A stretch of 64,000 nt of DNA from the NCBI RefSeq assembly GCF_002001165.1, contig NZ_MUNQ01000026.1, forward strand, positions 1-64,000, read 5' to 3'. This DNA comes from Rhodanobacter sp. C05. Lineage in GTDB: Bacteria; Pseudomonadota; Gammaproteobacteria; Xanthomonadales; Rhodanobacteraceae. Under the pieces are notes generated by a model, which worked only from the letters and a program-made list of their open reading frames with translations, was not told where the DNA came from and ran no database searches. Below are positions 20,151 to 56,400 of the stretch, piece by piece. Each line of letters starts with the position of its first letter. The first letter of the stretch is position 1. Both the position numbers and the translations under genes were made by a program.

Positions 20151-20199
20151 AGCTTAATGGCTGCATGCAATGACGACCGCGACACTGCATACGTATTCA
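20151..20199 (-). promoter_or_regulatory. operator 1 and -10 element upstream of the GH13 glucosidase
   Basis: The palindrome TGAATACGTATGCA (minus strand, 20186-20199) is followed after exactly 29 nt by TAAGCT (20156-20151), a plausible -10. There is no good -35 between them. The same arrangement recurs at three other promoters in the window. Confidence 0.65.
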
Positions 20200-20401
20200 T
20201 GTATCGCACCTATCGCATTGCAGCATTTCATGCTTCAACGCCATATGGACGTCCATTTGAAAAATGAAGAAACCTTCACAAATGGAGTCTGGCACTGGAT
20301 TGCACACGCATGCGCATGGTGCGCAGGCAACCCGGACAAGGGTGTGCACGCGACCACTTTTCCCGAGTCGCAATGCGGGTTTGCGGTGCACAGCAGCACA
20401 A

Positions 20402-20450
20402 TGAATACGTATTCAGTAAACGATCCGCTTGCAAAAGAGCGCCCTACCAT
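20402..20450 (+). promoter_or_regulatory. operator 2 and -10 element upstream of TonB receptor 1
   Basis: The perfect 14-bp palindrome TGAATACGTATTCA (20402-20415) is followed after 29 nt by TACCAT (20445-20450). The TonB receptor start is 113 nt further on. The 485-bp divergent region 20078-20562 thus has one site per direction. I see nothing else of note in it. Confidence 0.7.
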
Positions 20451-20562
20451 GATCCCCACGTTGACGGGTCATCGGCTCATGCGACCGTGCTGTTCACCGA
20501 AAACGTTGGGGCAATGACCGCAACCACAACAATATGATGTGCAACCCTGGGAGGGGATAACG

Positions 20563-23526
20563 ATGGTACTGAAACGCAATGTGCTGGCCCTGGCGCTTGC
20601 TTCTGCTGGATTCTGCTTCTCGCTTGGAGTCCATGCGACACCCGCTGACAACAACGCGAATCCGGGCAGTGCATCCGTCTCGTCCAATGCGCAGGCACCC
20701 AACCCGCAGAGCACCGATACGCAAAGCCAGACCGCTACGTCAAACGACACTGCGGCGCCTAAAAAAGCCGACCAGAAAACTCAGCTGGCCAAGAGCCTCG
20801 GCGCGATCACGGTGACCGGCTACAGCAAGAGCATCGAGACAGCGGTCGACATCCAGCGCTATGCGGACACCATCCAGAACGTGGTGACGGCCGCGGACAT
20901 CGGCGGCCTGCCGGACCAGTCGATCGCCGACGCACTGACCCGCCTGCCCGGCGTCACTGCCGAGCGCATCGGTGGCGAAGCCTCGCAGATCAACTGCAAC
21001 GGCCTGTCGGGCAACTTCATCCAGACCACGCTGGACGGCCGTGTGCAGCCGTCGACCAGCGGCACCAACTACATCCAGTTCGACCAGTACCCGGCCGAGC
21101 TGATCAATCAGGCCACCGTGTACAAATCGCAGCAGGCCAACCTGATCGAAGGTGGCGTAGGCTGCTCGATCGCAATGCAGACGGCCAATCCGCTTGAAGC
21201 CAAGCAGGAGCAGACCGTCAACATCGACATGCGTGGCAGCTACAACAACCAGGCCAGCGATGTATTCGGCGCCAATCCGGAAGGCTACCGCTTCAGTGCT
21301 GCATGGCAGGGCAAGTTCCTCAACGACACGCTGGGCGTGGGCCTGGGCTTCGCCCGCATGCAGCAGCCGCATGTTTCCGAGCAGTGGGTGGGTGAGGCCT
21401 TCGACGGGCAGCAACCCATCAACAATGCATTGCAGCAGGCCTATCCTTCCCAGGGTATCCAGGTGCAACAGAACGGTGGTGAGGAGCGCCGCAACGGCTA
21501 TCTGTCGACCATCGTGTGGAAACCCACCGACAACCTGCAGATCAGCGGCAACGGCTTCTACTCGCAATACGACGACGCCTCATTCGGCCGCGGCTTCCGC
21601 GCACAGCTGTTCGATCAGAATCAGGCGCAGATCACCAATCCGGTACTGCTGCCGAATGGCGCGATCGTCGGCGGCACGGTCACCAGCAACCCGATGACTG
21701 GCCTCGATCCGCGAACCGCCGGCGACTGCAACAACGGAACGACCGCCTGTCCGTACAGCCACAATTTCGGCCTGGAAACCACCGCCGACAACTACACCAC
21801 GCATACCACCGTGTTCTCCGGTGGTCTGAATGCGAAGTGGACCAGCGGCCCGTGGACGGTGGTGGCCGACGCCTCGATGTCACGCGCGACCAGTGCCCAG
21901 ATCAATGTCGACACCACCGCCGATCCCTACAATGGCCTGGGCACGGCTTCACCCTCGTTGATGGGCCAGTCGCTCACCTACGGACTGAACGGCCTCAACG
22001 TCGGCTCGCTCACGGTACCCAACCCGGGCATCTACACCAATCTCGGTGACATGGCGTTGTCGCGCTACGGCGTCTATCCGTACGTCTATCACGACCTCGA
22101 CAAGGGCTTCCGTCTCGAGTCCACCTACGAGCTTTCGAACAGTTCGCTGCTCTCGGCGATCGAGGGCGGCGTCTACATCAACAACCATACCTACAATGCC
22201 GACCGCTCGGCCTATGTGTACGGTTCGGAATGGGGTGACAACCTGTCGGCCGGCGCACCGCTGCTGCTCAACAGCAGCAATGCGATCAACACTTGCTGGC
22301 GCGGCGACTTTGCCGGCATGCCGTGCTTCCTCGCGCTGAACGGCCCGGCCATCCTGGCGGCGAACGGCATCACCAATACCACGCCACTGAAGAGCTGGGC
22401 CAACAACTGGACCTACATCCAGAGCGGCCAGGTCGACGTGAAATCGCGCGATGCCTACCTGATGGCTGACATCGACACCAACCTGTTCGATCACAGCGTG
22501 ACCGGCAACGTGGGCGTGCGCGTGGTGCGTACCTCGCAATACAGCAGCGGCCTGCAGCAGGTGGGCAATGGTGCCGGCATACCGATCACCGATCAGACTG
22601 GCGTGACCAGCAGCGACTACATCCCGGTGACTCAGGGCAAGACCTACACCGATGTGCTGCCGTCGATCAACCTGACCTACCACTTCGACGAGGCGAACCA
22701 GCTGCGCTTCTCTGCGGCCAAGGTGATGGCACCGCCGCCGATCAGCTCGCTGCTGGCCGGCCACGGCTCCTGGGTATCTGACGGGCAGTACAACCTGTGG
22801 AGCAACACCAGCCCGCTGCTCGACCCGATGTACGCCGGCCAGTTCGACCTGAGCTTCGAGCACTACTTCCCCGAATCGAGCGGTGCGTTCACCGCACACG
22901 TGTTCACCAAGCACATCGACTCGTTCGTGCAGCAGATCGTCTACAACGACTTCGACTTCGCCAGTGCCGGCATCACGGTACCGATCGATCCGACCACCGG
23001 CAGGCCGTACCTCAACGGCCAGTACCAGACCTCGTTCAACAACACCAAGGGCGGCACGGTTCACGGCCTGGATCTGTTCTACCAGAAGACCCACTTCCTG
23101 CCCGGCGTATGGTCTGGACTGGGCGTAAGCGCCGGCTTCTCGCTGACCCAGAGTGCCGTGCAGTCGCTCTCGGCACTGAGCGGGCCGCCGCAGAACCAGG
23201 GCCTGCCGGGCCTGTCGAAGAAGTCGGCCAGCGCGGCACTGTTCTACGACAACGGCACGTTCTCGGTCCGCCTGAACGGCACCTACCGCTCGTCGTTCGT
23301 GTCCGACTCGCAGATGTCGGTGAACAACCAGATCGTCTATTTCGCTCCCGAGACGGTGTTCGACCTGCAGACGGCCTACAACTTCACCAAGAACGTGAGC
23401 CTGCTGTTCCAGATCCTCAACCTGACCAACCAGCCGACCCGTACCTACTTCGGCAACACGCAGCAGACCGGCACGATCCAGTACTTCGGTCAGACGACCT
23501 ACCTCGGCGTCAACATCAAGCTGTAA
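20563..23526 (+). CDS. TonB-dependent receptor, Xanthomonas/Caulobacter sugar type
   Basis: 987-residue outer-membrane transporter. A signal peptide is followed by a Gln/Ser/Thr-rich linker, a TonB-box-like AITVTGYSKS, then the plug: AADIGGLPDQSIADALTRLPGVTAER and the DGR...QFDQYPAELI and LIEGGVGCSI segments typical of the TonB-Xanth-Caul group. The 22-strand barrel ends in an aromatic-alternating strand (QTTYLGVNIKL). Members of this group carry oligosaccharides such as maltodextrins and xylo-oligomers. The context of three alpha-glucan enzymes suggests maltodextrin or starch fragments; this is inference. Start at 20563 has the strong ribosome site GGGAGGGG. Terminator hairpins follow. Confidence 0.92.
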   Translation: MVLKRNVLALALASAGFCFSLGVHATPADNNANPGSASVSSNAQAPNPQSTDTQSQTATSNDTAAPKKADQKTQLAKSLGAITVTGYSKSIETAVDIQRYADTIQNVVTAADIGGLPDQSIADALTRLPGVTAERIGGEASQINCNGLSGNFIQTTLDGRVQPSTSGTNYIQFDQYPAELINQATVYKSQQANLIEGGVGCSIAMQTANPLEAKQEQTVNIDMRGSYNNQASDVFGANPEGYRFSAAWQGKFLNDTLGVGLGFARMQQPHVSEQWVGEAFDGQQPINNALQQAYPSQGIQVQQNGGEERRNGYLSTIVWKPTDNLQISGNGFYSQYDDASFGRGFRAQLFDQNQAQITNPVLLPNGAIVGGTVTSNPMTGLDPRTAGDCNNGTTACPYSHNFGLETTADNYTTHTTVFSGGLNAKWTSGPWTVVADASMSRATSAQINVDTTADPYNGLGTASPSLMGQSLTYGLNGLNVGSLTVPNPGIYTNLGDMALSRYGVYPYVYHDLDKGFRLESTYELSNSSLLSAIEGGVYINNHTYNADRSAYVYGSEWGDNLSAGAPLLLNSSNAINTCWRGDFAGMPCFLALNGPAILAANGITNTTPLKSWANNWTYIQSGQVDVKSRDAYLMADIDTNLFDHSVTGNVGVRVVRTSQYSSGLQQVGNGAGIPITDQTGVTSSDYIPVTQGKTYTDVLPSINLTYHFDEANQLRFSAAKVMAPPPISSLLAGHGSWVSDGQYNLWSNTSPLLDPMYAGQFDLSFEHYFPESSGAFTAHVFTKHIDSFVQQIVYNDFDFASAGITVPIDPTTGRPYLNGQYQTSFNNTKGGTVHGLDLFYQKTHFLPGVWSGLGVSAGFSLTQSAVQSLSALSGPPQNQGLPGLSKKSASAALFYDNGTFSVRLNGTYRSSFVSDSQMSVNNQIVYFAPETVFDLQTAYNFTKNVSLLFQILNLTNQPTRTYFGNTQQTGTIQYFGQTTYLGVNIKL

Positions 23527-23533
23527 GCACCAC

Positions 23534-23561
23534 GCCGGACATCGCCCTCACGATGTCCGGC
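23534..23561 (+). terminator. hairpin terminator after TonB receptor 1
   Basis: GCCGGACATCG and CGATGTCCGGC form an 11-bp perfect stem, 6-nt loop, followed by a pyrimidine run CTCTTCTCT. It begins 8 bp after the stop codon. Confidence 0.7.
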
Positions 23562-23573
23562 CTCTTCTCTCCA

Positions 23574-23605
23574 AACCGGTTCTGCAGCATGTAGCGGAAC
23601 CGGTT
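23574..23605 (+). promoter_or_regulatory. paired AACCGGTT palindromes before the amylase gene
   Basis: AACCGGTTC at 23574-23582 and GAACCGGTT at 23597-23605 are inverted copies, and each core AACCGGTT is itself a palindrome. It could be a second terminator stem (CTTTT follows) or a double operator for the downstream amylase gene. The sequence does not decide. Confidence 0.4.
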
Positions 23606-23746
23606 CTTTTGAACACGATTCGATGTGACACGCCAAGGGCGGTTGCCGGCCTTCCACCTGGCCGACGAATCATCTGCCGACCTGCTCCATCACCGCCCCG
23701 TGCTTCCGCCCGCACAATGAACGCGCGACCACTTCAGCAGGCCGAC

Positions 23747-25324: not shown

Positions 25325-25354
25325 TGTTGCAGCAGGCAAAAGGAGCTTGATCCG

Positions 25355-27745: not shown

Positions 27746-27760
27746 GGAATCCCCGTATCC

Positions 27761-31669: not shown

Positions 31670-31718
31670 TGAATACGTATGCAGAGGCTGGTTGCTGCAT
31701 TGCGACGGTCCCTACCAT
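31670..31718 (+). promoter_or_regulatory. operator 3 and -10 element of the six-hairpin glycosidase gene
   Basis: TGAATACGTATGCA (31670-31683) followed after 29 nt by TACCAT (31713-31718). The whole segment 31668-31870 is clearly similar to 42643-42850, including the operator, the -10, a TGACATAAC box before the ribosome site, and a short leader frame. Confidence 0.7.
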
Positions 31719-31809
31719 GCGGGATCAATGCAGATAGCCGCGGCTGTCGATGCTGCGCCTGCAACATGCGGGGCACGTCGCACCGTGACATAACAGCTGC
31801 GGGAGGGAC

Positions 31810-31863
31810 ATGCCGATGAAACACCAGAGCCACACCGGTAGCGCTGGGGTATGCGCATGCTGA
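31810..31863 (+). CDS. putative 17-residue leader peptide
   Basis: ATG at 31810 is preceded by GGGAGGGAC, a strong ribosome site. It encodes MPMKHQSHTGSAGVCAC and stops at TGA (31861-31863). Two bases later comes an ATG (31866) of the glycosidase gene, in the -1 frame. A similar frame occurs at 42793-42840 in the duplicated promoter. It may couple translation of the next gene, or mark a frameshifted original N-terminus. No peptide evidence. Confidence 0.4.
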   Translation: MPMKHQSHTGSAGVCAC

Positions 31864-34061
31864 GCATGCTGCTGGTCGCAGGCATGGCGGCAAGCGCCAA
31901 TGCGCCGGCATGGCAGGACGGCCTTGACTGGCACGGTGTGCACGTGAGCATGAGCCAGGACGCGCAAGGCAGCTACACGCTGGCGTGGCCGTACGGGCAA
32001 CGCGTGATCCCGGCTCAGCCACTGCACACCAAGACTGCCAGCCTGCTGTTCGACGGCTTGTTCGCGATGGCGCAGGACGACCTGAAACAGGATTCGGTAA
32101 CGGCGATCCGCGATGGTGCGTTCGATCACGGCCAGCCGATTCCCTGCCAGTGTTTCGAGACCGGCCTGAAGTGGCCGTATGTGTGGACGCGCGATCTTTC
32201 GTATTCGGTCGACCTCGGTCTGTGGCGCTTCGATCCTGCGCGTTCGCGCAACGGCCTGCAGTTCAAGCTTTCTGACGTACGCGTGCCGTCTGCGCCGCAG
32301 GGTTCGGCTTCAAGACAATACGTTGTGATGCAGGACACCGGCTCCGGCGGCAGCTGGCCGATCAGCACCGACCGTGTGGTGTGGTTTCTCGGCGCACAGC
32401 ATCTGCTCGGTGACAAGGCCTTCGCCGAGGACGTCTACCATGCGCTGGGCAACACGCTGACGCAGGATCGGCAGTACGCATTCGACGCCACGTTCGGACT
32501 CTATCGCGGCGAAACCTCCTTCCTCGACTGGCGCGAGCAGACCTATCCGGCATGGACGGCGGATAACGTCGTCACTATCGGGCAGTCGTTCGCGTTATCC
32601 ACCAATGTGCTGCATTATCAGGCACTGCAGCTGGCCGCCACGCTGGCCGACGCACACCACGATGCACAGGCAGCCACCGACTATAGCGCGCAGGCTGTGG
32701 CGCTGAAGACGGCAATCAACGCGCACTTCTGGCGCGCCGACCGCGGCCTCTATATGAGCTACCTCGGCGGCGACGGTACGCCTTATGACACCTACGACCT
32801 GCTCGGCATCGCGCTGGCGGTCACCAGCGGCGTGGCCGATGGCGCGCGCGCACAGCAGACGCTGGCGAACTATCCGACCTGGCCGGCTGGCAGTCCGGTG
32901 ATCTGGCCCGAGCGCGCCGACCAGCCGATCTATCACAATCGTGCGATCTGGCCGTTCGTCAGCGCCTACGCACTGCGTGCTGCGCGCGTAGTGAACGCGC
33001 CGGCGCGCATTGCGCACGAGATCGAATCGGTGATGCGCGGGGCCGCGCTGTACGGCTCCAACATGGAAAACTACGAACTGCTGACCCAGGGTCAGCACGT
33101 GGACGAGGGCAAGCTCAGCGGCCCTGTGGTGAATTCGCCGCGGCAAGTGTGGTCGGTGGCTGCCTATCTCGCGGTGGTGACCGAAGGCGTGTTCGGTCTC
33201 ACTGAAGATGGCCGCGTCGAACCGAAGCTGCCCACCTCGCTGGTGCCGATGCTGTTCGGTCAGCGCACGTCGATCAAACTGGATCTGCCGGATCGACAGA
33301 TCACGTTGCAACTTCCCGCGCACGTCGACGGCAACCTGCTGGTCGCCGACCGCACCGACACGCACGGCACCAACACGGTCGTCACGCTCAAGGCGATCCA
33401 GGTGCCGGATCTGCCATTGCGCACCGATGCACCGCCGTATGCACCGGCCGCCCCACCCGCGCCCGTGCTGATCGCTGATGCCGACGGCTGGCGCGTGCAG
33501 GTCGACGGCAAGGTTGTGCTTTATATCAACGGCAAACGCCACGGCAGCATCGACGGCAACGGCCAGCTCGCGCATCAGCCGGGACTGAGCTGCGTCAGCG
33601 CCACGCGCATCGATGCACATGGCCTCGAATCACTGCACAGCCCCGACACCTGCGTGGGCGATGTGATGAAAGTAGTTGGCAGTTGGCCACGCACGTGGAC
33701 AGCGCCAGCCACCGGCAACTATCGCGTTTCACTCGACTACGCGAACGCACATGGCCCGATCAACACCGGCGTCACCGCCGCCGTGAAGATGCTGCTGATC
33801 CGCTGTCACGGCAGCGACGAGCAGCGCCTGCCGATCGTGATGCCGCACAGCATCGGCGTGCAGCGCTCGACCTGGGGCCGCTTCGCCGCGAAAGCCGGCG
33901 CCAGCTGCCACTTCGCACTCGATGACGGTTTCAACATGAGCTATCTCACCCACTTCGCGCATTACACCGGCGGCGCCGGTGGCACCGACGGCCCGTTGAA
34001 CAGCGCCAGCATCGGCGATCTGCTGATTGCGCCACTGGGCGTCGCGATCGCCACGCCATGA
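31851..34061 (+). CDS. exported six-hairpin (alpha/alpha barrel) glycosidase-like protein
   Basis: 736 residues. Short signal peptide (MLLVAGMAASANA), an N-terminal beta region, then a helical barrel with glycosidase-like aromatic/acidic motifs: CFETGLKWPYVWTRDLSYSV, FLDWREQTYPAWT, YDLLGIALAV, IWPERADQPIYHNRAIWPF, GSNMENYELLTQGQ and NSPRQVWSVAAYL. A C-terminal jelly-roll-like domain with several cysteines follows. The pattern is that of (alpha/alpha)6 enzymes such as MGH1/GH63-like families; I cannot assign a GH number or the catalytic pair. Start uncertain among ATGs at 31851, 31857 and 31866, all overlapping the leader frame. The operator shared with the receptor and transporter genes suggests the same sugar regulon. 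Confidence 0.75.
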   Translation: MRMLSMLLVAGMAASANAPAWQDGLDWHGVHVSMSQDAQGSYTLAWPYGQRVIPAQPLHTKTASLLFDGLFAMAQDDLKQDSVTAIRDGAFDHGQPIPCQCFETGLKWPYVWTRDLSYSVDLGLWRFDPARSRNGLQFKLSDVRVPSAPQGSASRQYVVMQDTGSGGSWPISTDRVVWFLGAQHLLGDKAFAEDVYHALGNTLTQDRQYAFDATFGLYRGETSFLDWREQTYPAWTADNVVTIGQSFALSTNVLHYQALQLAATLADAHHDAQAATDYSAQAVALKTAINAHFWRADRGLYMSYLGGDGTPYDTYDLLGIALAVTSGVADGARAQQTLANYPTWPAGSPVIWPERADQPIYHNRAIWPFVSAYALRAARVVNAPARIAHEIESVMRGAALYGSNMENYELLTQGQHVDEGKLSGPVVNSPRQVWSVAAYLAVVTEGVFGLTEDGRVEPKLPTSLVPMLFGQRTSIKLDLPDRQITLQLPAHVDGNLLVADRTDTHGTNTVVTLKAIQVPDLPLRTDAPPYAPAAPPAPVLIADADGWRVQVDGKVVLYINGKRHGSIDGNGQLAHQPGLSCVSATRIDAHGLESLHSPDTCVGDVMKVVGSWPRTWTAPATGNYRVSLDYANAHGPINTGVTAAVKMLLIRCHGSDEQRLPIVMPHSIGVQRSTWGRFAAKAGASCHFALDDGFNMSYLTHFAHYTGGAGGTDGPLNSASIGDLLIAPLGVAIATP

Positions 34062-34123: not shown

Positions 34124-35719
34124 TCAACTGCCAGCGGCTGCAGCCATATCTGCACGCGGCCGGATGCGCTGCATATGTTCGCGGCACAGCTGTTCGACCA
34201 GCGCACGATGATCCGGCAGGTCATCGAGTGCGTGACTGGCCGCCTGCTGGATCATCGCGAATTCCCGACTTGCCGCCTCCATGTGCGGATAGGCGCTGCG
34301 CATGGGTTCGAAGTCGGTCTGGAACTCCATGCCGTACAGCACGTACTGCCAGCTGGCGGTCATGAACATTTCCAGGTCGCCGACGAAATCCAGCCGATGC
34401 GGCGGCCGATGCTTCCACTTCGCGAGCTTTTCCTGCAGGGTTTGCGGGATGCTGGCCGCGTCGGAGTTGTCGATCCAGAACCGCGAGTCGCGCCGCTGGC
34501 TCAGGCAGTAGTGCATCTTGATGAAGTCGATGATGCGGTCGTAGCGTGCAACCATCATCTCGTTGAAATGACGCGCGGCACTTTCCATGTTGTCGGTGTC
34601 GCCTGGCAACAGATGAGTAAGCAGATACGTAGCCAGTTCGATCAACGCGATTCCGGTCGATTCCAGCGGCTCCACGAAGCCACCTGCAAGGCCGACCGCA
34701 ACACAATTCTTGCGCCAGTGCTCGGGCCGGTAACCGGTTTCGAACTTGATGTGCATGGCTGCCAGCCCTTCGCCGGCCGAACCCAGGTAACGGCGGAACA
34801 CTGCCTCCGCACGCTCGTCATCCGTGTGGCGCGAGGAATACACGTAGCCGACACCGCGGCGCTTCTGCAAGCCGATGTCCCAGATCCAGCCGGCCTCCTG
34901 CGCGCTGGAGATGGTGTAAGGCGGGATCGGCGCATCCGGCTTCGCATAAGGCACCTGCATCGCCACCGCGCGGTCGGCGAACAGGACGTCCCGGCGGCTG
35001 CGGAACGGCGACTGCATGATGCCGCCGATCAAGGTGCCGCGCAGGCCGGTGCAATCCACGTAGAGATCTGCGGTCAGCTCCCCGAGTTCCTTGGTCACTA
35101 CACATGCGATGGCGCCCTGCTCGTCCAGCACGGCGCGCTCGACGGTTGCGACGTGCCGCTTCACTCCCAGCGTTTCCTGACCGTGTTCCGCCAGCACCTT
35201 GGCGAAGCAGGCAGCATCGAAATGGAACGCATGATTCATCGGTCCCTGGTAATCGGGATCGGTCGAGCGCCTCGGGCCGCGTCCGTGATCGACCAGGGTG
35301 CTCTGCATGGTCACTGCATCGGCGAACGACACCCCCGCGGGAGCGGCTCCCAGCAGCCAGTACGGCAACAGCTCGGGGCCGCCAGGGCGCTGGCTCGGCT
35401 GGCTGAAAGGGTGGAAGAAATGGTCACTGCCGGGCGTGCCCGGCGGCCTGACCCAATGGCGATAGTGGATACCCTGCTTGTAGGTTGCCGTGGCCCCCAC
35501 CAGGAAGCGTCGCTCGTCCAGCCCGATCGCCGCCAAGGTGCCGCGGATCGAAGGAAACGTGGCCTCGCCCACCCCGAGCAGGCCGATATGGTCCGACTCG
35601 ACCAGATGCACCTGGACACTGTCCGGATGAACCGCATTCATGGCCTTGGCCAGGTAACACGCAGCCAGCCAGCCGGCCGTACCGCCGCCCACCACCAGCA
35701 CTTTCTTCAATCTCGACAT
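34124..35719 (-). CDS. flavin-dependent halogenase of the tryptophan halogenase family
   Basis: 531 residues. The FAD-binding GGGTAG is at 11-16, GVGEATFPS at about 49-57, and a Lys at 81 (TYKQGIHYRHW) matches the catalytic lysine of PrnA-type enzymes. The family WxWxIP motif appears as WIWDIG, lacking the usual Pro. Ends with the typical helical region. Characterised members chlorinate or brominate tryptophan, indole or phenols with reduced flavin from a separate reductase; no reductase gene is seen here. It follows TonB receptor 2 and a GH3 on the same strand. Similar halogenase/receptor pairs are known in xanthomonads and Caulobacterales, where substrates are mostly unknown. Ribosome site AGGAACAGG; start 35719. 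Confidence 0.88.
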   Translation of the reverse strand: MSRLKKVLVVGGGTAGWLAACYLAKAMNAVHPDSVQVHLVESDHIGLLGVGEATFPSIRGTLAAIGLDERRFLVGATATYKQGIHYRHWVRPPGTPGSDHFFHPFSQPSQRPGGPELLPYWLLGAAPAGVSFADAVTMQSTLVDHGRGPRRSTDPDYQGPMNHAFHFDAACFAKVLAEHGQETLGVKRHVATVERAVLDEQGAIACVVTKELGELTADLYVDCTGLRGTLIGGIMQSPFRSRRDVLFADRAVAMQVPYAKPDAPIPPYTISSAQEAGWIWDIGLQKRRGVGYVYSSRHTDDERAEAVFRRYLGSAGEGLAAMHIKFETGYRPEHWRKNCVAVGLAGGFVEPLESTGIALIELATYLLTHLLPGDTDNMESAARHFNEMMVARYDRIIDFIKMHYCLSQRRDSRFWIDNSDAASIPQTLQEKLAKWKHRPPHRLDFVGDLEMFMTASWQYVLYGMEFQTDFEPMRSAYPHMEAASREFAMIQQAASHALDDLPDHRALVEQLCREHMQRIRPRADMAAAAGS

Positions 35720-35840
35720 GTCCTGTTCCTTTCGCAGACGGTACAGACGACACCCTCTGACTCGGCAATTGCATGGCTCGATGACCACGTGGTCAATTTG
35801 CACCGCAAGAAACACGCCTCGTCGCAGCCTCCCAAAGAAA

Positions 35841-35865
35841 GGCCGGACTCCAGGGGAGTCCGGCC
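35841..35865 (-). terminator. intrinsic terminator of TonB receptor 2
   Basis: GGCCGGACTCC and GGAGTCCGGCC form an 11-bp stem with a 3-nt loop. On the minus strand it is followed by TTTCTTT. It lies between the receptor and halogenase genes, so the halogenase depends on read-through or its own promoter. Confidence 0.7.
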
Positions 35866-35958
35866 AAAGTGCCATTCAGGGGAGGGTTGAAGACATCCTC
35901 GTCGTGATGCCTTCAGAACGGCAACGGTGTTGCGTCACTAGCCGCACGGACTCGACCA

Positions 35959-38391: not shown

Positions 38392-38490
38392 CTGGCTCTC
38401 CCTCTAAATCGTTCGGATGGTTGTTGGCCGCCACGAACACCGGCCAAGACAAAGATTTCCCCGCTCCCCACGCCACACCGTTGATCCTGA

Positions 38491-38508
38491 AATGACAGCG
38501 CTGTCATT
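38491..38508. promoter_or_regulatory. operator A, upstream of TonB receptor 2
   Basis: AATGACAGCGCTGTCATT is a perfect 18-bp palindrome with a central GCGC, 100 bp before the receptor start. A -10-like TATGAT (minus strand, around 38514-38519) lies just upstream of it, so the site would overlap the transcription start and act as a block. The 14-bp core recurs at 41441-41454. Confidence 0.75.
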
Positions 38509-38578
38509 GACTGATCATAGAGCGCCTCTGCGATGAATGCTTGTCGCACAGCAACAAGCCATCAAGGCATTCACAACC

Positions 38579-38818
38579 TCATGCTTTACGGCCCCTCACG
38601 CCGCTTGCTTGGCCTTCCAACAGCTTGTTATTGATGCAACGCAAATAGACGTCTTGGCGTCCAATCCCGCGAAGACGGCATCCACCTGTCGACCTGCGCC
38701 TGCTGAAAGTGGAGTAGCTGATTCCGAAGTCGTGCCGGCGCAACGACCCGGCCAACATCGCGAAACCCGCAATGAACACCATTGACATCACCACTGCGGA
38801 CAACGGCTCGACATTCAT
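38579..38818 (-). CDS. possible small membrane protein coupled to the GH3 gene
   Basis: 79 codons starting MNVEPLSAVVMSMVFIAG, with one hydrophobic helix, then basic residues (SLRRHDFG, FSRRRSTGG). The ATG overlaps the GH3 stop as ATGA, which favours translation. The C-terminal part is low in structure and could be out-of-frame remnant of a longer membrane protein. No family recognised. The upstream part of the region, 38392-38578, holds only the receptor promoter and operator. Confidence 0.4.
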   Translation of the reverse strand: MNVEPLSAVVMSMVFIAGFAMLAGSLRRHDFGISYSTFSRRRSTGGCRLRGIGRQDVYLRCINNKLLEGQASGVRGRKA

Positions 38819-41382: not shown

Positions 41383-41440
41383 GGCAACGCTCCTGGCTGG
41401 CGCACCGGCGGTGCGCGTCTGAGCCGCAGGGTGGCAGAAA

Positions 41441-41454
41441 TGACAGCGCTGTCA
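41441..41454. promoter_or_regulatory. operator A, upstream of the GH3 gene
   Basis: Perfect 14-bp palindrome TGACAGCGCTGTCA, identical to the core at 38493-38506. On the minus strand the bases AATTGACAGC would put a TTGACA-like -35 within the operator, again suggesting repression. Confidence 0.75.
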
Positions 41455-41502
41455 ATTTGCTCTGCAACATGACTGCCGAGTCGTGCGGCGGAGTGGGTGG
41501 CC

Positions 41503-42516
41503 TCAGGGGGCAGCGGCAGTGGAGCCGCGGATCTGCAGGACGAAGGGCACCTGCACCAGCTGGCCAGCGCCGTGACCGCGCAATGCGCCGAGCAATTGCT
41601 CAGCGGCGATCTTGCCCATCTCGCGACTCGGTTGCTGGACGGTGGTGAGCGCCGGCCACAGCTGGCGCGACAGCGGCGTATCGTCGAAGCCGCAGACCGA
41701 CAGGTCTTGCGGTACCTTCAAGCCGTACTCGCCAGCCGCCCACATCACGCCGGTGGCCATGTCGTCGTTGGCGGCGAACACCGCCGTCGGCCGTTTGGCC
41801 AGCGCAAACAACTTCCGCGCCGCCTCCACGCCGGAGCCGAAGGTGAAGGCGCCCTGCACCACCATGGCCGGATCCTCCGGCAGGCCCGCGGCGGCCATCG
41901 CCTCGCGGTAACCAGCCAGACGCCAGCGGCTGGCACCGTGGTCGGCGATGCCGATTACGTGGGCAATCCGCCGATGCCCCAGTTCCAGCAGATGTTCCAC
42001 GATCGCCCGTGCGGCCCGCTGCTCGTCCATCGTGACGCCGATGACTTTGCCACGCCGCTGCGGCGACACGCTGGCGTACGGTACGTTGGACTCGCGCAGG
42101 CGTTTCAGCAGCGGCGCATAGTCGGTGATCGGTGGCGTCAGCACGACGCCATCGGGGTGATGATCGGAAATCAGTGCATCGAAGCGACGGATGAAATCAC
42201 CGCCGCGCATGCGAAGCGGACGCACCATCATGCTGTAGCGATGCGCGTCGCAAGCCTCCAATACACCATCCTGAATCTCGGCCAGATAGGTCGAGGCCGG
42301 ATTGTCATTGTTGTCGTACAACATCGCCACCAGGAACGAGCGATTGCCCGCCAGACTGCGCGCCGATGGATGCGGGCGATAGTCCATCGCCTCCATGGCG
42401 GCGCGCACGCGCTGACGCGTGGCATCGGTCACGTTGGCCTCGTCATTGAGCACACGCGACACCGTCTTGGGCGATACATTCGCCGCGCGCGCCACATCTT
42501 CGAGGCGTACCCGCAT
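41503..42516 (-). CDS. LacI-family transcriptional regulator 1
   Basis: 337 residues: N-terminal helix-turn-helix (RLEDVARAANVSPKTVSRVL) with hinge helix (RPHPSARSLAG), then a periplasmic-binding-protein-like sugar sensor (SFLVAMLYDNNDNPAS, VFAANDDMATGVMWAAGEY, LSVCGFDDTPLSRQLWPALT). Start at 42516 is supported by GGAG 9 bp upstream. It directly precedes the operator-A-controlled GH3 gene on the same strand, which makes it the best candidate to bind TGACAGCGCTGTCA. The other operator type also lies within 130 bp upstream, so that assignment is inference. Confidence 0.9.
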   Translation of the reverse strand: MRVRLEDVARAANVSPKTVSRVLNDEANVTDATRQRVRAAMEAMDYRPHPSARSLAGNRSFLVAMLYDNNDNPASTYLAEIQDGVLEACDAHRYSMMVRPLRMRGGDFIRRFDALISDHHPDGVVLTPPITDYAPLLKRLRESNVPYASVSPQRRGKVIGVTMDEQRAARAIVEHLLELGHRRIAHVIGIADHGASRWRLAGYREAMAAAGLPEDPAMVVQGAFTFGSGVEAARKLFALAKRPTAVFAANDDMATGVMWAAGEYGLKVPQDLSVCGFDDTPLSRQLWPALTTVQQPSREMGKIAAEQLLGALRGHGAGQLVQVPFVLQIRGSTAAAP

Positions 42517-42644: not shown

Positions 42645-42693
42645 TGAATACGTATGCAGGCGCTGGTTACTGCACTGCGACGCTGCCTACCAT
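42645..42693 (+). promoter_or_regulatory. operator 4 and -10 element upstream of the sugar MFS gene
   Basis: TGAATACGTATGCA (42645-42658), 29 nt, then TACCAT (42688-42693). Part of the segment duplicated from or into 31668-31870. The divergent region 42517-42901 otherwise holds two short frames chained by overlapping stops and starts. Confidence 0.7.
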
Positions 42694-42792
42694 GCAGGGC
42701 TGTCGCCCGGCAGCAAGGTGCACCGATGCTGCGCCCGCAGCATGCGGGATGCGCCACGCCATGACATAACTGCTGCCTGAGGGGAGGTGCCA

Positions 42793-42840
42793 ATGATCCG
42801 GATCAACCACAGCTCAGTACCCACGGTGCGCGTGTGTTGA
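42793..42840 (+). CDS. putative 15-residue leader peptide
   Basis: ATG at 42793, preceded by GAGGGGAGG, encodes MIRINHSSVPTVRVC and stops at TGA. After two bases an ATG (42843) opens a 20-codon frame whose TGA (42903-42905) overlaps the ATG of the transporter gene (42902). It mirrors the leader at 31810-31863 in position, in its Cys-ending last codon and in the TGAGCATG junction. The second short frame looks like the decayed N-terminus of the gene that follows the other copy. Confidence 0.4.
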   Translation: MIRINHSSVPTVRVC

Positions 42841-42901
42841 GCATGCCGCGAGCGAACGCGGGCGCGCCGCGCGACATCACCTGCAACAAGGATAGCCACC
42901 G

Positions 42902-44371
42902 ATGACGCCGAAACCCGCACTGTCGTTCTGGCAGATCTGGAACATGTGCTTCGGCTTTCTCGGCCTCCAGTTCGGCTTTGCGCTGCAGAACGCGAACGTC
43001 AGCCGGATATTCCAGACGCTGGGCGCGAACGTGAACGACATCCCGGCGCTATGGATCGCCGCGCCATTGACCGGGCTGATCGTGCAACCGATCATCGGCC
43101 ACTACTCCGATCGCACCTGGAACCGGCTGGGCCGGCGCCGGCCGTACTTCCTGCTCGGCGCGGTGTTCGCCTCGCTGGCGCTGCTGTGGATGCCGAACGC
43201 ACCGATGCTGTGGGTGGCCGCCGGCCTGCTGTGGATCCTGGATGCGTCGATCAACGTGTCGATGGAGCCGTTCCGTGCCTTCGTCGGCGATCAACTGCCC
43301 ACGCAGCAACGACCTGCCGGTTATGCGATGCAGAGTTTCTTCATCGGTGCTGGCGCGGTGATCGCCTCCATGTTGCCGTGGATCCTGGCGCAGTTCGGTG
43401 TGGCCAACGTGGCGACGGACGGAGGCATCCCCGATACGGTGAAGTACGCGTTCTACGCCGGTGGCGCGGTGCTGCTTGGCGCGGTGCTCTGGACCATCCT
43501 GACCACGCGCGAATACCCGCCCGCGCAGTTGCAATCGTTCACCGACAACGTGGCAGATGAACCGGCCGTGGATGCATCGCGCGCCTGGCGGCCGGGCGTG
43601 CTGCTGCTGCTGGTCGGTATCGCGGTGCTGCTCGCGATCAGGCATTTCACGCTGGAGAAAGAGGTCTACCTGCTGGCCGGCGGCCTGATCGTGTTCGGCC
43701 TGCTGTTCGCATGGCTGAGTCGCACCCGCAGCCACCGCATGTTGCGCGAAGTGATGGGCGACCTCTATGGCATGCCGGCTTCGATGCGGCGGCTGGCCTG
43801 GGTGCAGCTGTTCTCCTGGTTCGCGCTGTTCGCGATGTGGATCTACACCACCTCGGGCGTGACACAGACGATCTACGGCACCATCGATACCGGCTCGTCC
43901 GCCTACAACGAGGGTGCCAACTGGGTCGGCGTGCTGTTCGCCGCGTATAACGGTTTTGCCGCACTGGCCGCGGTGCTTATCCCGCTGATGGTGCGTCGAT
44001 GGGGCCTGCGCATCAGCCATGTGGTGAACCTGTGTCTTGGGGGTGCTGGTCTGCTGTCCTTCCTGTACATCCGCGATCCACACTGGCTGCTCGCCTCGAT
44101 GGTCGGCGTCGGCTTTGCGTGGGCCTCGATCCTGTCGCTGCCTTATGCGTTGCTGTCGGACAACCTGCCCACGGCGAAGATGGGCGTCTACATGGGCATC
44201 TTCAATTTCTTCATCGTGATCCCGCAACTGCTCGCCGCCAGCGTGCTCGGCCTGCTGCTGCGGCTGTGCTTCCACAACCAGCCGATCTGGGCACTCGGCC
44301 TGGGCGGCGCCAGCCTGCTCATCGCGGGCCTGTGCACGCTGCGCGTGCCCGAACCCGAGGCTAGCGTGTAA
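42902..44371 (+). CDS. MFS sugar transporter, SLC45/GPH-like
   Basis: 489 residues with 12 predicted membrane helices. Signatures: WQIWNMCFGFLGLQFGFALQ at the N-terminus, GHYSDRTWNRLGRRRPYF in the helix 2-3 loop (the MFS motif A region), and SMEPFRAFVGDQLP after helix 4. These match the proton-coupled disaccharide carriers related to SLC45 and to the maltose transporter of Caulobacter. It should move maltose, sucrose or similar sugars across the inner membrane. A GH13 gene follows after 37 bp; both probably form one operon under operator 4. Start chosen for AAGGATAG upstream and the ATGA junction. Confidence 0.88.
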   Translation: MTPKPALSFWQIWNMCFGFLGLQFGFALQNANVSRIFQTLGANVNDIPALWIAAPLTGLIVQPIIGHYSDRTWNRLGRRRPYFLLGAVFASLALLWMPNAPMLWVAAGLLWILDASINVSMEPFRAFVGDQLPTQQRPAGYAMQSFFIGAGAVIASMLPWILAQFGVANVATDGGIPDTVKYAFYAGGAVLLGAVLWTILTTREYPPAQLQSFTDNVADEPAVDASRAWRPGVLLLLVGIAVLLAIRHFTLEKEVYLLAGGLIVFGLLFAWLSRTRSHRMLREVMGDLYGMPASMRRLAWVQLFSWFALFAMWIYTTSGVTQTIYGTIDTGSSAYNEGANWVGVLFAAYNGFAALAAVLIPLMVRRWGLRISHVVNLCLGGAGLLSFLYIRDPHWLLASMVGVGFAWASILSLPYALLSDNLPTAKMGVYMGIFNFFIVIPQLLAASVLGLLLRLCFHNQPIWALGLGGASLLIAGLCTLRVPEPEASV

Positions 44372-44408
44372 CTGACACACCCGCGCCCCGCTCCATAGAG
44401 CCCCAACC

Positions 44409-46097
44409 ATGCCCAAGCTGCACCTGCTTCCCGTCCTCGTCGCCACTCTCGCCTGCAGCCTCGTGCACGCGGCCACACCAACCAAGACACCCGAGTTCGT
44501 TGGCACCGACGAGCCGTTCGCATCCAACGCGATCTACTTCGTGATGACCGACCGCTTCGTCAACGGCGATCCGTCCAACGATCAGCGCCATCAGGGCGGC
44601 GCGCATCCCACCTTCGATATTCCGGTAGCGGGCGCACCCAAGGGCCAGAGCGACAACATCGGCTACCTCGGCGGCGACTTCAAGGGCGTGCTGGACAACG
44701 CCGGCTATATCCGCAGCATGGGCTTCGGCGCGGTGTGGATCACCCCGATCGTGCAGAACCCGGACGAGGCGTTCACCGGCGGCGACCCGGTGAGCTGGGG
44801 CTCGAAGTTCACCGACCGCGGCAAGACCGGCTTCCACGGCTACTGGGGCGTCAACTTCTACAAGCTCGACCCGCACCTGCCCAGCAAGAACCTCGACTTC
44901 GCCCAGTTCACCGCAGCGATGCACGCGCAGGGGCTGAAGGTGGTGCAGGACATCGTCGCCAATCACGGCTCGCCCGCCTTCAGCATGCCGAAGGCGCAGC
45001 CGATGTTCGGCCAGATTTACGACAAGGACGGCAAGCTGATCGCCGACGAGCAGAACCTGCGACCGGACCAGCTCGACCCCGTGCGCAATCCGCTGCATCG
45101 CTTCTATCACGCGTACGAGGATCTGGCCCAGCTCTCCAACAACGACGACGAGAATCCGGCCGTGCTGGACTACTTCGTCGGTGCGTATCTGCAATGGGCC
45201 GCCGAAGGTGCCGACGCTTTCCGCATCGACACCATCAGCCACATGCCCACCGCGTTCTGGAAACAGTTCGCCGCACGCATCCGCGCGAAGCATCCGGGCT
45301 TCTTCATGTTCGGCGAGGCGTTCGACTACAGCCCCGACAACATCGGCCAGTACACCTGGGCGAAGAGCGGCGGCATCAGCGTGCTCGACTTCCCGCTGCG
45401 CGGGCGCGTCGCCGACGTATTCGAACATCCCGGCAGCGACTACGCCCACCTGCTCGACCGCCTCTACCTCACCAACGGCCCCTACGCGAACCCGTACGAC
45501 CTGGTCACCTTCTACGACAACCACGACATGGCGCGACTCAACGCCAGCGACAACGGCTTCATTGACGCCAACAACTGGCTGTTCACCGCGCGCGGCATTC
45601 CGGCCATCTACTACGGCTCGGAAACCGGCTTCGAGCGCGGCAAGGCCGAGCATGAAGGCAACCGCAACTACTACGGTCAGCAGCGCATCGACGACGCGTC
45701 AAAGAGTCCGATCTACGAACATCTCAAGCGCATCGCGCAACTGCGCGAGCACACGCCCGCTCTGCAACGCGGCCTGATGCTGCCGCTGCGCTTCGCCGGG
45801 GATCAGGCTGCGTTCTATCGCGTCTATCAGAAAGGCGAGGTGCACCAGATTGCGCTGGTGCTGCTCAACAAGGGCGACCAGTCGGCCGACTTCACCATCA
45901 GCGACGACTTGCAGCCGGGTCATTGGAAAGCTGCCGTCGGTGACAGCTCGATCGAGGTAGCCAATGGCGGCCATCTGCACGCCAGCGTCGGCGCACACGA
46001 CGTACAGGTCTATCTGTTTGATGCAGCCATCACCCGTACCGATCTTGTTGCTGAGCTGACGCGACTGGTGCAGGAACGCGGACATCCAGCCAACTAA
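44409..46097 (+). CDS. exported GH13 alpha-amylase/cyclomaltodextrinase-like enzyme
   Basis: 562 residues with a signal peptide (LHLLPVLVATLACSLVHA). The N-terminal region FASNAIYFVMTDRFVNGDPSN and the long first loop (GGDFKGVLDNAGYI, VWITPIVQNP) match GH13_19-type periplasmic amylases. Catalytic residues: DAFRIDTISHM (Asp), FFMFGEAFDY (Glu) and FYDNHDMARL (Asp). The C-terminal beta domain is short. It would break maltodextrins to small sugars for the adjacent MFS carrier. It is the third GH13 in the island and the only one with its own transporter. The coding end (46097) is about 150 bp from the first attC core of the second array. Confidence 0.9.
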   Translation: MPKLHLLPVLVATLACSLVHAATPTKTPEFVGTDEPFASNAIYFVMTDRFVNGDPSNDQRHQGGAHPTFDIPVAGAPKGQSDNIGYLGGDFKGVLDNAGYIRSMGFGAVWITPIVQNPDEAFTGGDPVSWGSKFTDRGKTGFHGYWGVNFYKLDPHLPSKNLDFAQFTAAMHAQGLKVVQDIVANHGSPAFSMPKAQPMFGQIYDKDGKLIADEQNLRPDQLDPVRNPLHRFYHAYEDLAQLSNNDDENPAVLDYFVGAYLQWAAEGADAFRIDTISHMPTAFWKQFAARIRAKHPGFFMFGEAFDYSPDNIGQYTWAKSGGISVLDFPLRGRVADVFEHPGSDYAHLLDRLYLTNGPYANPYDLVTFYDNHDMARLNASDNGFIDANNWLFTARGIPAIYYGSETGFERGKAEHEGNRNYYGQQRIDDASKSPIYEHLKRIAQLREHTPALQRGLMLPLRFAGDQAAFYRVYQKGEVHQIALVLLNKGDQSADFTISDDLQPGHWKAAVGDSSIEVANGGHLHASVGAHDVQVYLFDAAITRTDLVAELTRLVQERGHPAN

Positions 46098-47410: not shown

Positions 47411-47412
47411 GC

Positions 47413-49566: not shown

Positions 49567-49585
49567 TCAAAGCGCACTGCGCTCA

Positions 49586-53441: not shown

Positions 53442-53582
53442 GCGACGTGGCCAGGCGGCTTTGGCAGGTTAAGCCATGCCGCGCAAGGGCCGCAATGCGG
53501 ATTTTTCCCAGGTGCACACGATGTCTGCGCAGACCCAAGGCATGCTGGAGGTTTGTGGAGCGGGGCTCGCGTATCCAAGGAT

Positions 53583-53695
53583 AGTCTGAATAACCCGTCA
53601 TCCCAGCGAAAGCTGGGGTCCAGGGCCGTCGCAAGTCACCAAAGACGCCGGATTCCAGCTTTCGCTGGAATGACGGCAAAGAATTATTCAGACCA
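53583..53695. repeat. 113-bp inverted repeat (REP/BIME-like)
   Basis: The outer ends AGTCTGAATAAC and GAATTATTCAGAC pair with each other. Inside are CCGTCATCCCAGCGAAAGC and GCTTTCGCTGGAATGACGG, the common CGTCATTCCAGCGAAAGCTGG intergenic palindrome. It separates the EAL gene and the LacI gene and may end transcription of the latter. Confidence 0.7.
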
Positions 53696-53698
53696 TCC

Positions 53699-54721
53699 CT
53701 AGCGCAGGCTCGACCGCCGCACCATCAGCTTCACCGGCAACACCTCGCTTTCCACTGACTCGCCGCGGATCAGGCTGAGCAGGCTGTCGACGAGAGTTTC
53801 GCCGGCCTGGCGGGTGTCCTGCAGGATCGTGGTCAACGGCGGATTGACGAAACTGGCCATGGCGATGTCATCGAAACCGGCCAGCGCAACATCCTGCGGT
53901 ACGCGCAAGCCGTGATCGCTGAGCGCGTGCATCGCGCCGATCGCGATCAGGTCGCTGGCGGCGAACACTGCGTCGAAGCCGGTCTCGCGCATGATCAGCG
54001 CGCGCATCGCTTCATAACCGGAACGTTCGGTGCTCTCGGCGTTTTCCTGCAACGCGGGATCGACCTCCACGCCGGCCTGTTGCAACGCATCGGCATAGCC
54101 GCGGTAGCGCGCGAAGAATTCCGGATAATGGCTGGAGGCGTCGCCGAGAAAGGCGATGCGGCGGCAGCCACGCTCCAGCAGGTGTTCGGCCACGTCCTGA
54201 CCGCCACGGAAGTTGTCACACCCGATCGAGACGCCGGGCTGATCGGGCAGCACCGCACCCCAGCGCACGAAACGGGTGCCTTGGGCGACCAGTTTTTCCA
54301 GCTTGTCGGTGTAGGCAAGATAATCGCCGTAGCCGAGCAGGATCAGCCCATCGGCCTTCTTGCTGTCGGCGAAATCGGCATGCCAGTCGCGCGAGAACTG
54401 CTGGAACGAGATCAGCAGATCGTAGCCCTGCAGCGCGCAGGCGCGGGTGATCGAGCCGAGCATCGACAGGAAGAACGGATTGATGTGCGACTCGTCGGCG
54501 GTGGGGTCCTCGAAGAACAGCAGCGCCAGCGTGCCGGTATGCATCCGGCGCAGGTTGGAGGCGTTCTTGTCGAGTTTGTAGTTCAGCTGTTCGGCGGCAG
54601 CTTCGATGCGCCGGCGGGTTTCCTCATTGACCAATGGACTGCCGCGCAGCGCGCGCGACACAGTGGCCTGCGAGACCCCGGCCAGATGGGCGATATCGAT
54701 GGATGTGGATTTTCCCTTCAT
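53699..54721 (-). CDS. LacI-family transcriptional regulator 2
   Basis: 340 residues: helix-turn-helix TSIDIAHLAGVSQATVSRAL, hinge region DKNASNLRRMHTG, and a sugar-binding sensor domain (AVFAASDLIAIGAMHALSDHGLRVPQ, LAGFDDIAMASFVNPPLT). It lies downstream of a sugar porter on the same strand, and that porter has an ATACGTAT-type operator upstream. This makes regulator 2 the likeliest protein to bind the five TGAATACGTATKCA sites; inference only. Start at 54721 (MKGKST), just 15 bp from a 17-bp hairpin; a start at 54748 would lie inside that hairpin. Confidence 0.88.
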   Translation of the reverse strand: MKGKSTSIDIAHLAGVSQATVSRALRGSPLVNEETRRRIEAAAEQLNYKLDKNASNLRRMHTGTLALLFFEDPTADESHINPFFLSMLGSITRACALQGYDLLISFQQFSRDWHADFADSKKADGLILLGYGDYLAYTDKLEKLVAQGTRFVRWGAVLPDQPGVSIGCDNFRGGQDVAEHLLERGCRRIAFLGDASSHYPEFFARYRGYADALQQAGVEVDPALQENAESTERSGYEAMRALIMRETGFDAVFAASDLIAIGAMHALSDHGLRVPQDVALAGFDDIAMASFVNPPLTTILQDTRQAGETLVDSLLSLIRGESVESEVLPVKLMVRRSSLR

Positions 54722-54735
54722 CTGCAGCCTGATCC

Positions 54736-54782
54736 GGATTCCGCTCAACGGGCGGCGAAACGCTACCCGTTGAGCGGAATCC
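54736..54782. repeat. 17-bp perfect hairpin immediately before the LacI gene
   Basis: GGATTCCGCTCAACGGG (54736-54752) and CCCGTTGAGCGGAATCC (54766-54782) pair perfectly around a 13-nt loop. Without a T-tract it is not a standard terminator. It would sit in the leader of the regulator mRNA or at its promoter. Confidence 0.6.
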
Positions 54783-54891
54783 TAGCTGCTTTGCGCGCCG
54801 CCTGTCGTATCCGGCCCGATGCGGCCGATGCGGGGGCAACCCGGTGGTGTCATTGAGGCAGTTGCCGGGAGGAATTCGCGATTGACGGCGC

Positions 54892-56313
54892 TCAGGCGCG
54901 CATGTCTTCCAGCTCGACCCCCTTGGTTTCGCGTACCGCGTACAGCACGAACAGCAGCGACAACAGGGCGAAGCCGGCGTAGAGGCCGTAGGCGAACGTG
55001 AGGCCGATTTCGGCCAGCGCCGGGAAGCTGCTGGTGATCGCGAAGTTCGCCAGCCACTGCGCTGCAGCGGCCACGGCCAGCGCGGTCGCGCGGATCCGGT
55101 TCGGGAACATCTCGCCCAGCAGCACCCACACCACCGGACCCCAGCTCACTCCGAAGAACACCACGTAGGCATTCGCCGCGACCAGCGCGACGATGCCGGT
55201 GGCACCTGGCAGGCTGAGCGTGGCACCGCTGCCGGTAGCCTGCGAGAAGCACCAGGCCATGAGCCCCAAGGTGATCGCCATGCCGGCCGAGCCGACCACC
55301 AGCAGCGGCTTGCGGCCGATCCTGTCGACCAGCGCGATCGCCACCAGGGTCACCAGCACGTTGACCACCGAGGTGACGACGGTGATCGTGAACGAATCCG
55401 CCTCGCTGAAGCCCACCGAATGCCACAGAGTAGACGAGTAATAGAAGATCACGTTGATGCCGACGAACTGCTGGAACACCGACAGCAGGATGCCGATCCA
55501 CACCACCGGCAGCAGACCCGCGGCCTTGCCGAGCAGGTCGCTCAGGCGCGGCTGATGTTCCGAACGCAGGCTGTCCTCGATGTCGTGCAGCTTGCTGTCC
55601 AGCGCGGCGTCGCTATGCATGTTCAACACCTGGCGCAGCACGTCCCTGGCTTCGGCCAGACGACCCTTGGCCACCAGATAGCGCGGCGACTCCGGCACAC
55701 CCAGCACCAGGGTGCCGTAGATCAGGGCCGGCAGCACCGCCGCCAGGAACATCCAGCGCCAGGCGCCCAGCCCGAACCACAGCGCATGCGACGCACCGCC
55801 AGCCGAACCGGCCAGCCACGCGTCACTGAGCAGGGCCGCGAAGATACCCAGCACGATCGCCAGCTGTTGCATCGAACCGAGCCGGCCGCGGATATACGCG
55901 GGCGATACTTCGGCGATATAGGTCGGCGCGATCACCGAGGCCACGCCGACGCCGATGCCACCGACCAGTCGCCACAGGATCAGCTGCCACACGGCACCCG
56001 CCAGTCCCGAACCCAGCGCGCTGGCCACCAGCAGCACGGCCGCCACCTGCATGGTGCGCACGCGACCCCAGCGGTTCGCCAGCATGCCGGCATACCACGC
56101 GCCCAACGCCGAACCGAGCAAGGCGCACGACACCGCAAAACCGGTCTGTGCAGCATCCAGCGTAAAAGCGCCACGGATCGCATCGACCGCGCCGTTGATC
56201 ACCGCCGTGTCGAAGCCGAACAGGAAGCCGCCCAGCGCCGCTGCCGCCGAGATCAACACCACCCGTGTGGTGGCGTGCTGGCCCGATCCATCTGTCGCGT
56301 CCATTGTGCTCAT
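54892..56313 (-). CDS. sugar porter-family MFS transporter
   Basis: 473 residues with 12 helices and sugar porter signatures: GGFLFGFDTAVINGAVDAI in helix 1, RVGGIGVG-type RLVGGIGVGVASVIAPTYI, the PESPRYL motif after helix 6, QQFVGINVIFYYSS in helix 7, and the helix 8-9 DRIGRKPL. Related to glucose, xylose and galactose proton symporters. Under an ATACGTAT-type operator (56387-56400) it probably takes up glucose released by the periplasmic enzymes at 23-46 kb; the regulon link is by operator only. The LacI regulator gene follows on the same strand. Confidence 0.9.
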   Translation of the reverse strand: MSTMDATDGSGQHATTRVVLISAAAALGGFLFGFDTAVINGAVDAIRGAFTLDAAQTGFAVSCALLGSALGAWYAGMLANRWGRVRTMQVAAVLLVASALGSGLAGAVWQLILWRLVGGIGVGVASVIAPTYIAEVSPAYIRGRLGSMQQLAIVLGIFAALLSDAWLAGSAGGASHALWFGLGAWRWMFLAAVLPALIYGTLVLGVPESPRYLVAKGRLAEARDVLRQVLNMHSDAALDSKLHDIEDSLRSEHQPRLSDLLGKAAGLLPVVWIGILLSVFQQFVGINVIFYYSSTLWHSVGFSEADSFTITVVTSVVNVLVTLVAIALVDRIGRKPLLVVGSAGMAITLGLMAWCFSQATGSGATLSLPGATGIVALVAANAYVVFFGVSWGPVVWVLLGEMFPNRIRATALAVAAAAQWLANFAITSSFPALAEIGLTFAYGLYAGFALLSLLFVLYAVRETKGVELEDMRA

Positions 56314-56386
56314 CGCGTCTCCCCAACGTTCATGGCATCAAATAATTGTGGACCGAGTCTGCACCGCAGTCCCCGTCGTGTCCGGC

Positions 56387-56400
56387 TGAATACGTATGCA
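56387..56400. promoter_or_regulatory. operator 5, upstream of the sugar porter gene
   Basis: TGAATACGTATGCA, 74 bp before the porter start and only 4 bp beyond the end of the convergently placed antiporter gene. Here the 29-nt position holds no -10-like hexamer; the nearest candidate CACAAT is at 36 nt. Confidence 0.65.

Follow-up and report, generated by a model that had tools for sequence, protein, structure and literature searches.

A DNA stretch of 64,000 nucleotides from Rhodanobacter sp. C05 (hereafter the window, to which all positions refer) carries several copies of one palindromic operator ahead of genes for sugar uptake and breakdown, together with genes for two LacI-family proteins, LacI1 and LacI2. 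LacI is a textbook repressor family. A sequence-only reading of the window had nevertheless placed five of these operators in one regulon, with a −10-like hexamer at a fixed 29-nt distance from the first four, weak −35 elements and an activator-like operator position, and had named both LacI proteins as candidate regulators. The locus therefore raises two questions: which protein acts on these operators, and does it switch the genes on or off?

Operator sites in the window

We searched both strands of the window for the operator motif with up to three mismatches, which gave 12 matches, compared with a mean of 3.5 and a maximum of 10 in 100 shuffles. Exact matches were found at all five of the previously proposed positions, 20186 (minus strand), 20402, 31670, 42645, and 56387, and only the one at 20402 is a perfect palindrome. 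Pfam and NCBIfam searches bore out the genes assigned to them, namely a GH13 enzyme, a TonB receptor, a six-hairpin glycosidase, an MFS transporter with a second GH13 enzyme, and a sugar porter. In the list below, class A denotes the operators of the enzyme and TonB-receptor promoters, and class B denotes the reversed operator of the sugar porter-LacI2 operon.

20186..20199, minus strand: class A operator of the GH13 glucosidase gene, exact match to TGAATACGTATGCA
20151..20156, minus strand: −10-like hexamer TAAGCT, 29 nt past the operator, read from the sequence
18458..20077, minus strand: GH13 gene, start inferred; Pfam Alpha-amylase, 7e-124
20402..20415, plus strand: class A operator of TonB receptor 1, TGAATACGTATTCA, a perfect palindrome
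20445..20450, plus strand: −10-like hexamer TACCAT, 29 nt past the operator (pattern match 20402-20450)
20563..23526, plus strand: TonB-dependent receptor 1; TIGR01782, 3.7e-151; start inferred from the ribosome site GGGAGGGG
31670..31683, plus strand: class A operator of the six-hairpin glycosidase gene, exact match
31713..31718, plus strand: −10-like hexamer TACCAT of the six-hairpin promoter, pattern match
31851..34061, plus strand: six-hairpin glycosidase gene; product 52% identical to the X. euvesicatoria homologue (locus L262)
42645..42658, plus strand: class A operator of the MFS/GH13 pair, exact match; the promoter-leader segment shares homology with that at 31670
42688..42693, plus strand: −10-like hexamer TACCAT of the MFS/GH13 promoter, pattern match
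42902..46097, plus strand: MFS/GH13 pair, with the MFS transporter at 42902-44371 (66% to L262) and the GH13 enzyme at 44409-46097 (62%)
56387..56400, minus strand: class B operator of the sugar porter-LacI2 operon, reversed, with the TGCA half distal
56379..56384, minus strand: −35-like CGGACA, 2 nt past the operator, nearly invariant across 23 nonredundant promoters of class B, most of them orthologues
56356..56361, minus strand: −10-like CAGACT, 17 nt past the −35-like element; CAGAMT is the selection criterion of the set
54892..56313, minus strand: sugar porter of the MFS; Pfam Sugar_tr, 5e-107
53699..54748, minus strand: LacI2, proposed cognate regulator by co-occurrence, start codon uncertain; LacI HTH and Peripla_BP_3 domains
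41503..42510, minus strand: LacI1, not required for the architecture, with a different recognition helix

The 29-nt geometry was found at the four class A sites, with TACCAT following the operators at 20402, 31670, and 42645 on the plus strand and TAAGCT following that at 20186 on the minus strand. Apart from these operators, CG-centred palindromes of the window with at least 6 of 7 arm pairs were not followed by TACCAT at 26–31 nt. The whole genome contains six exact operators (control, 0). The sixth is unlinked, lies on another contig (L001, G000:C1:37552-37565), shows the same N29-TACCAT pattern as the sites at 20402, 31670, and 42645, and stands before an isoamylase-like gene (6e-242 to isoamylase 1bf2) whose start resembles a signal peptide. 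Two further observations concern the gene content of the window. The GH13 product of 18458-20077 scores 812 bits against the NCBIfam model ‘beta-galactosidase BglA’ (cut-off 900), which is surprising beside its alpha-amylase domain, and the stretch between the six-hairpin and MFS/GH13 units (34124-42510) holds TonB receptor 2, a GH3 enzyme, and LacI1.

The sites are not all of separate origin. Alignment of the promoter-leader segments at 31670 and 42645 gave a score of 82.5, against a maximum of 25 in 200 shuffles; from these sequences, the two are a promoter duplication and are not independent. The spacer that they share is also common, by eye, to the sixth site. The X. euvesicatoria locus L262 has its six-hairpin, MFS, and GH13 genes side by side on the same strand, behind a single operator, and the homologues of this trio form two units here, each with its own promoter copy; the promoter, leader, and start region of the six-hairpin gene thus appear to have been duplicated ahead of the MFS/GH13 pair (31670-31865 vs. 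42645-42853). Because these promoters share an origin, the evidence from this genome is weaker than it looked, the geometry counting as some three separate lineages, and the case rests on order-wide evidence rather than on a single genome.

Two features of the leaders were also recorded. A short upstream open reading frame (31810-31863), whose ATG is that at 31810 or that at 31816, closes with TGCTGA and there overlaps the six-hairpin gene at its ATGCTGAGC start, an arrangement that may reflect translational coupling. When any upstream in-frame ATG was accepted, 22 of 25 leaders scanned had an ATG-started frame at this place, a raw count that includes one TonB-receptor-like leader. The divergent operators at 20186 and 20402 might conceivably be joined by looping; in 16 genomes such pairs are 168–256 bp apart, and their raw phases at 10.5 bp per turn range from 0.00 to 0.57, most of them from 0.19 to 0.57.

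Operator-to-hexamer distance across genomes

We then compared the operator and its distance to the hexamer across genomes. Exact palindromes were present in 35 of 36 genomes of the genus, the present one included (none in G022), and in 43 of the 60 genomes of that sample. The operator-N29-TACCAT pattern occurred in 38 of 40 genus genomes and was missing in G022 and G061 (control, 0). When the spacer was allowed to vary from 14 to 44 nt, the pattern appeared in 98 of 299 genomes, from 30 of 85 genera, of the order to which Rhodanobacter and Xanthomonas belong, and the reversed-pattern control gave 0. Among the 150 matches listed in this search, the spacers were 27, 28, 29, and 30 nt in 23, 74, 51, and 2 cases, respectively. 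At distinct sites, TACCAT lay at 27, 28, 29, and 30 nt in 14, 27, 59, and 2 cases. For TAAGCT, with 35 sites in all, the distance was 28 nt in 3, 29 nt in 17, and 30 nt in 15. These two distance sets, like those used below for the −35 comparison, draw in part on loci that had been retrieved with the hexamer as a filter. The letters of the spacer are mostly unrelated from lineage to lineage. At four LacI2 loci whose operator has two mismatches, TACCAT still lies at 28 or 29 nt. The proposed fixed spacing thus held across the order as a nearly fixed distance, with a range of 27–30 nt rather than exactly 29.

A chance origin of the sites and their geometry was excluded by the shuffles together with the zero controls for the N29-TACCAT and order-wide patterns. 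Other CG palindromes at the examined loci had no TACCAT 27–30 nt away, nor did three exact xyl-box loci, a small sample. Outside the order, the pattern was found in 1 of 364 genomes, with a spacer of 28 nt (369 genomes were searched, 5 of them within the order), so the nearly fixed geometry allows a very specific prediction of targets. Some operators stand apart from this pattern: loci L020 and L049 have TGCATACGTATGCA sites without either promoter class, and L019 and L052 also have operators without a matching hexamer.

The candidate regulator

LacI2 has the domain order of the LacI/GalR family, an N-terminal HTH (PF00356, 1.1e-15) followed by a periplasmic-binding-protein-like domain (PF13377, 6.6e-36), and it matches LacI-family structures in the PDB. 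Its nearest relatives are in Rhodanobacter and, further out, in Dyella, Pseudoxanthomonas, and Xanthomonas. LacI2 was found (E ≤ 1e-75) in 96 of 98 order genomes with the architecture vs. 45 of 201 without it, a comparison among related genomes, which are not independent; 45 of the 141 genomes with LacI2 thus have no exact operator-N14–44-TACCAT match. The two exceptions are G187, whose site-bearing contig holds a 68% LacI2 fragment at its edge, and G094, in which no LacI2 was found in an assembly 86% complete. Within the genus, 36 of 40 genomes have a full-length LacI2 orthologue (at least 79%), G017 and G061 have partial ones, and none was found in G011 and G022. G011 has the sites in an assembly 89% complete, whereas G022 has neither LacI2 nor the palindrome. 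G061, which has no N29-TACCAT site, carries LacI2 matches that cover residues 5–147 and 303–349 and lie next to each other (L279, G061:C116:22123-22709), as if the middle of the gene were missing.

LacI1, which adjoins the site at 42645, is a very improbable regulator of these operators. A LacI1 match of at least 80% (one of them partial) was found in 19 of 40 genus genomes, and 19 of the 21 without such a match keep the N29-TACCAT architecture. Its recognition helix also differs: LacI1 has PKTVSRVL, whereas Q-[APS]-TVSR is found in 76 of 80 LacI2 loci, the other four not being caught by the search expression. Between the two regulators proposed earlier, co-occurrence therefore retains LacI2 and sets aside the dispensable LacI1, and the regulator is likely to be LacI2 (53699-54748).

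Promoter classes, predicted mode of control, and known systems

To describe operator orientation, only loci fetched without the hexamer filter were counted. On sides where the TGAA half is distal (TGAATACGTATGCA), TANNNT lay at 27–30 nt in 39 of 67 nonredundant cases, compared with 0.15 per offset elsewhere; the remaining 28 had neither TANNNT nor CAGAMT there, and many of them are the back of porter sites. On sides in the opposite orientation, TANNNT lay at 27–30 nt in 0 of 91, and CAGAMT lay at 25 nt in 11 of 91. The flanking base differs as well: in class A, the distal TGAA half is preceded by A at 129 of 142 sites, and in class B, the distal TGCA half is preceded by C at 27 of 32. Class B promoters have CGGACA, or a sequence close to it, separated by 17 nt from CAGA[A/C]TCG (23 nonredundant promoters, selected by CAGAMTC); all those seen come from the genus or its near relatives, and they are mostly one-genus orthologues, so that their conservation is partly descent. 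The porter site at 56387, with its reversed operator and −35/−10 pair, belongs to this class and stands apart from the four class A sites.

The two classes also differ in their −35 regions. For TACCAT-type class A promoters, the best −35 match at spacings of 15–19 was 2.60 of 6 positions vs. 2.48 for shuffled sequences (40 nonredundant), and for the TAAGCT type 2.59 vs. 2.62 (17 nonredundant), whereas class B reached 4.0 vs. 2.49 (18 nonredundant, largely orthologues). The weak −35 elements noted in the window are thus a property of class A at large, whose −35 regions are no better than shuffled sequence. Within 60 nt upstream of the class A operators, only the operator-adjacent A and two weak columns (−23 and −48) were conserved, and CRP-like sites showed no excess within 100 nt (0 of 58 with at least 8 of 10 positions matched). 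A second upstream activator was considered and finds no support in these counts. Because there is neither a −35 element nor another strong conserved block within 60 nt upstream, the operator is the best candidate for the activating element.

These distances acquire a meaning for transcription if the hexamer is a −10 element. Its types (TACCAT, TAAGCT, TAACAT, and TACTAT) agree in the outer T, A, and T and vary in the inner letters, as −10 elements do, and in a crude scan of 101 sites a start codon followed 10–229 nt downstream (median, 93). A near-invariant C stands directly before the hexamer (37 of 40 promoters), for which we know of no −10 rule; it would fit a reading in which TANNNT is part of the regulator target or of another protein's site and transcription starts elsewhere, which we regard as improbable. 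With the hexamer taken as the −10 element and a start about 7 nt downstream, the class A operators would centre at about −46.5 to −49.5, so that the activator-like position suggested for the window would extend across the order. On the same assumption, the operator is nearly fixed relative to the −10 element, as expected of an activator promoter with a weak or absent −35, and the gap of 27–30 nt keeps it from overlapping the core promoter or the start, as a repressor site would.

Taken together, these observations make it reasonably probable that LacI2 runs an alpha-glucan (starch and maltodextrin) regulon in the order and activates its class A promoters. A LacI2 dimer would sit on A-TGAATAC.GTATGCA, with its centre some 48 bp ahead of the transcription start, and would substitute for the missing −35 element by recruiting sigma70 RNA polymerase to the C-TAnnnT −10 element, with LacI2 probably active in its sugar-bound state. 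The targets include GH13 enzymes, sugar transporters, and the isoamylase-like gene, and conserved targets, the shared operator, and LacI2 recur together in xanthomonads (L262 and other Xanthomonas loci). We infer an alpha-glucan effector from these targets and from starch induction in X. citri, where most genes of the locus XAC2595-XAC2602 and amy (XAC0798) are reported to be starch-induced (PMC10714752).

Such induction does not separate activation from derepression, and it is compatible with LacI2 as an ordinary repressor. Apo-LacI2 bound upstream would then block the polymerase alpha/sigma4 contact until released by sugar, and the spacing would be the optimal blocking position. Two LacI-family regulators of Xanthomonas, SuxR (PMC1790865) and XylR (PMC10380989), are reported as repressors, which speaks for repression and against activation. 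We consider repression of class A rather unlikely, as the site is clear of −10 and +1 if the hexamer is the −10 element, and as repression needs an active core promoter, yet the −35 region scores like shuffled sequence, the spacer is rich in GC, and the 60 nt upstream showed no site for another activator. Recruitment of polymerase by LacI2 is the simplest reading of class A because a repressor needs a strong core promoter and none is visible.

A symmetric dimer does not, however, account for the strict orientation of the operator. In class B, just 2 nt separate the operator from the −35-like element, and control of either sign is possible there. LacI2 might therefore work in two modes, activating class A and repressing or autoregulating the porter-LacI2 promoter; the opposite operator orientations and different cores of the two classes fit this, whereas orientation could reflect another constraint and the class B promoters seen are confined to the genus and its near relatives. 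We hold these two modes possible, if on the unlikely side, and they overlap with activation of class A rather than exclude it. Slightly more doubtful is the specific proposal that operator polarity sets the sign, with a distal TGAA half activating −35-less promoters and a distal TGCA half near the −35 repressing or autoregulating the regulator's own operon.

If activation by LacI2 is true, the regulon would be a clean, order-wide natural system for LacI-family activation in place of a −35 element, and starch control in xanthomonads would have the opposite sign to the one presumed. On this prediction, some bacteria of soil and plants turn on their starch-eating genes with a LacI-type protein that sits a fixed distance from each gene start. 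We found no description of the operator, the near-fixed geometry, the absent −35, or the polarity switch in the literature searched, which mostly left out subscription papers.

Among the closest known systems is the X. citri locus, which, as described, likewise has a LacI-family regulator, MFS, GH13, TBDT, GH97, and an unlinked starch enzyme, together with a protein of 780 residues bearing an amylo-alpha-1,6-glucosidase-like motif (PMC10714752). The likeness is judged from this described gene content, and the accounts differ in that its authors suggest repression by the LacI protein of the locus (PMC10714752). The pattern operator-27-TACCAT precedes the homologues of the six-hairpin, MFS, and GH13 genes at L262 of X. 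euvesicatoria. SuxR and XylR resemble LacI2 in family, order, and kind of targets. Cra/FruR and the predicted PckR are LacI-family proteins that both activate and repress, the sign for PckR being predicted from site position (PMC4052901); they serve central metabolism, whereas LacI2 would serve a local sugar regulon with TonB receptors. LacI-family activators are already known, and the present case would be a variant. CcpA and the bifidobacterial AraQ/MalR1 are reported or predicted activators with upstream sites, which lie, in the cases described, 14–35 bp upstream of a recognisable −35 and at several distances (PMC6882875), whereas the class A operators have no recognisable −35 and keep a nearly constant distance to the −10.
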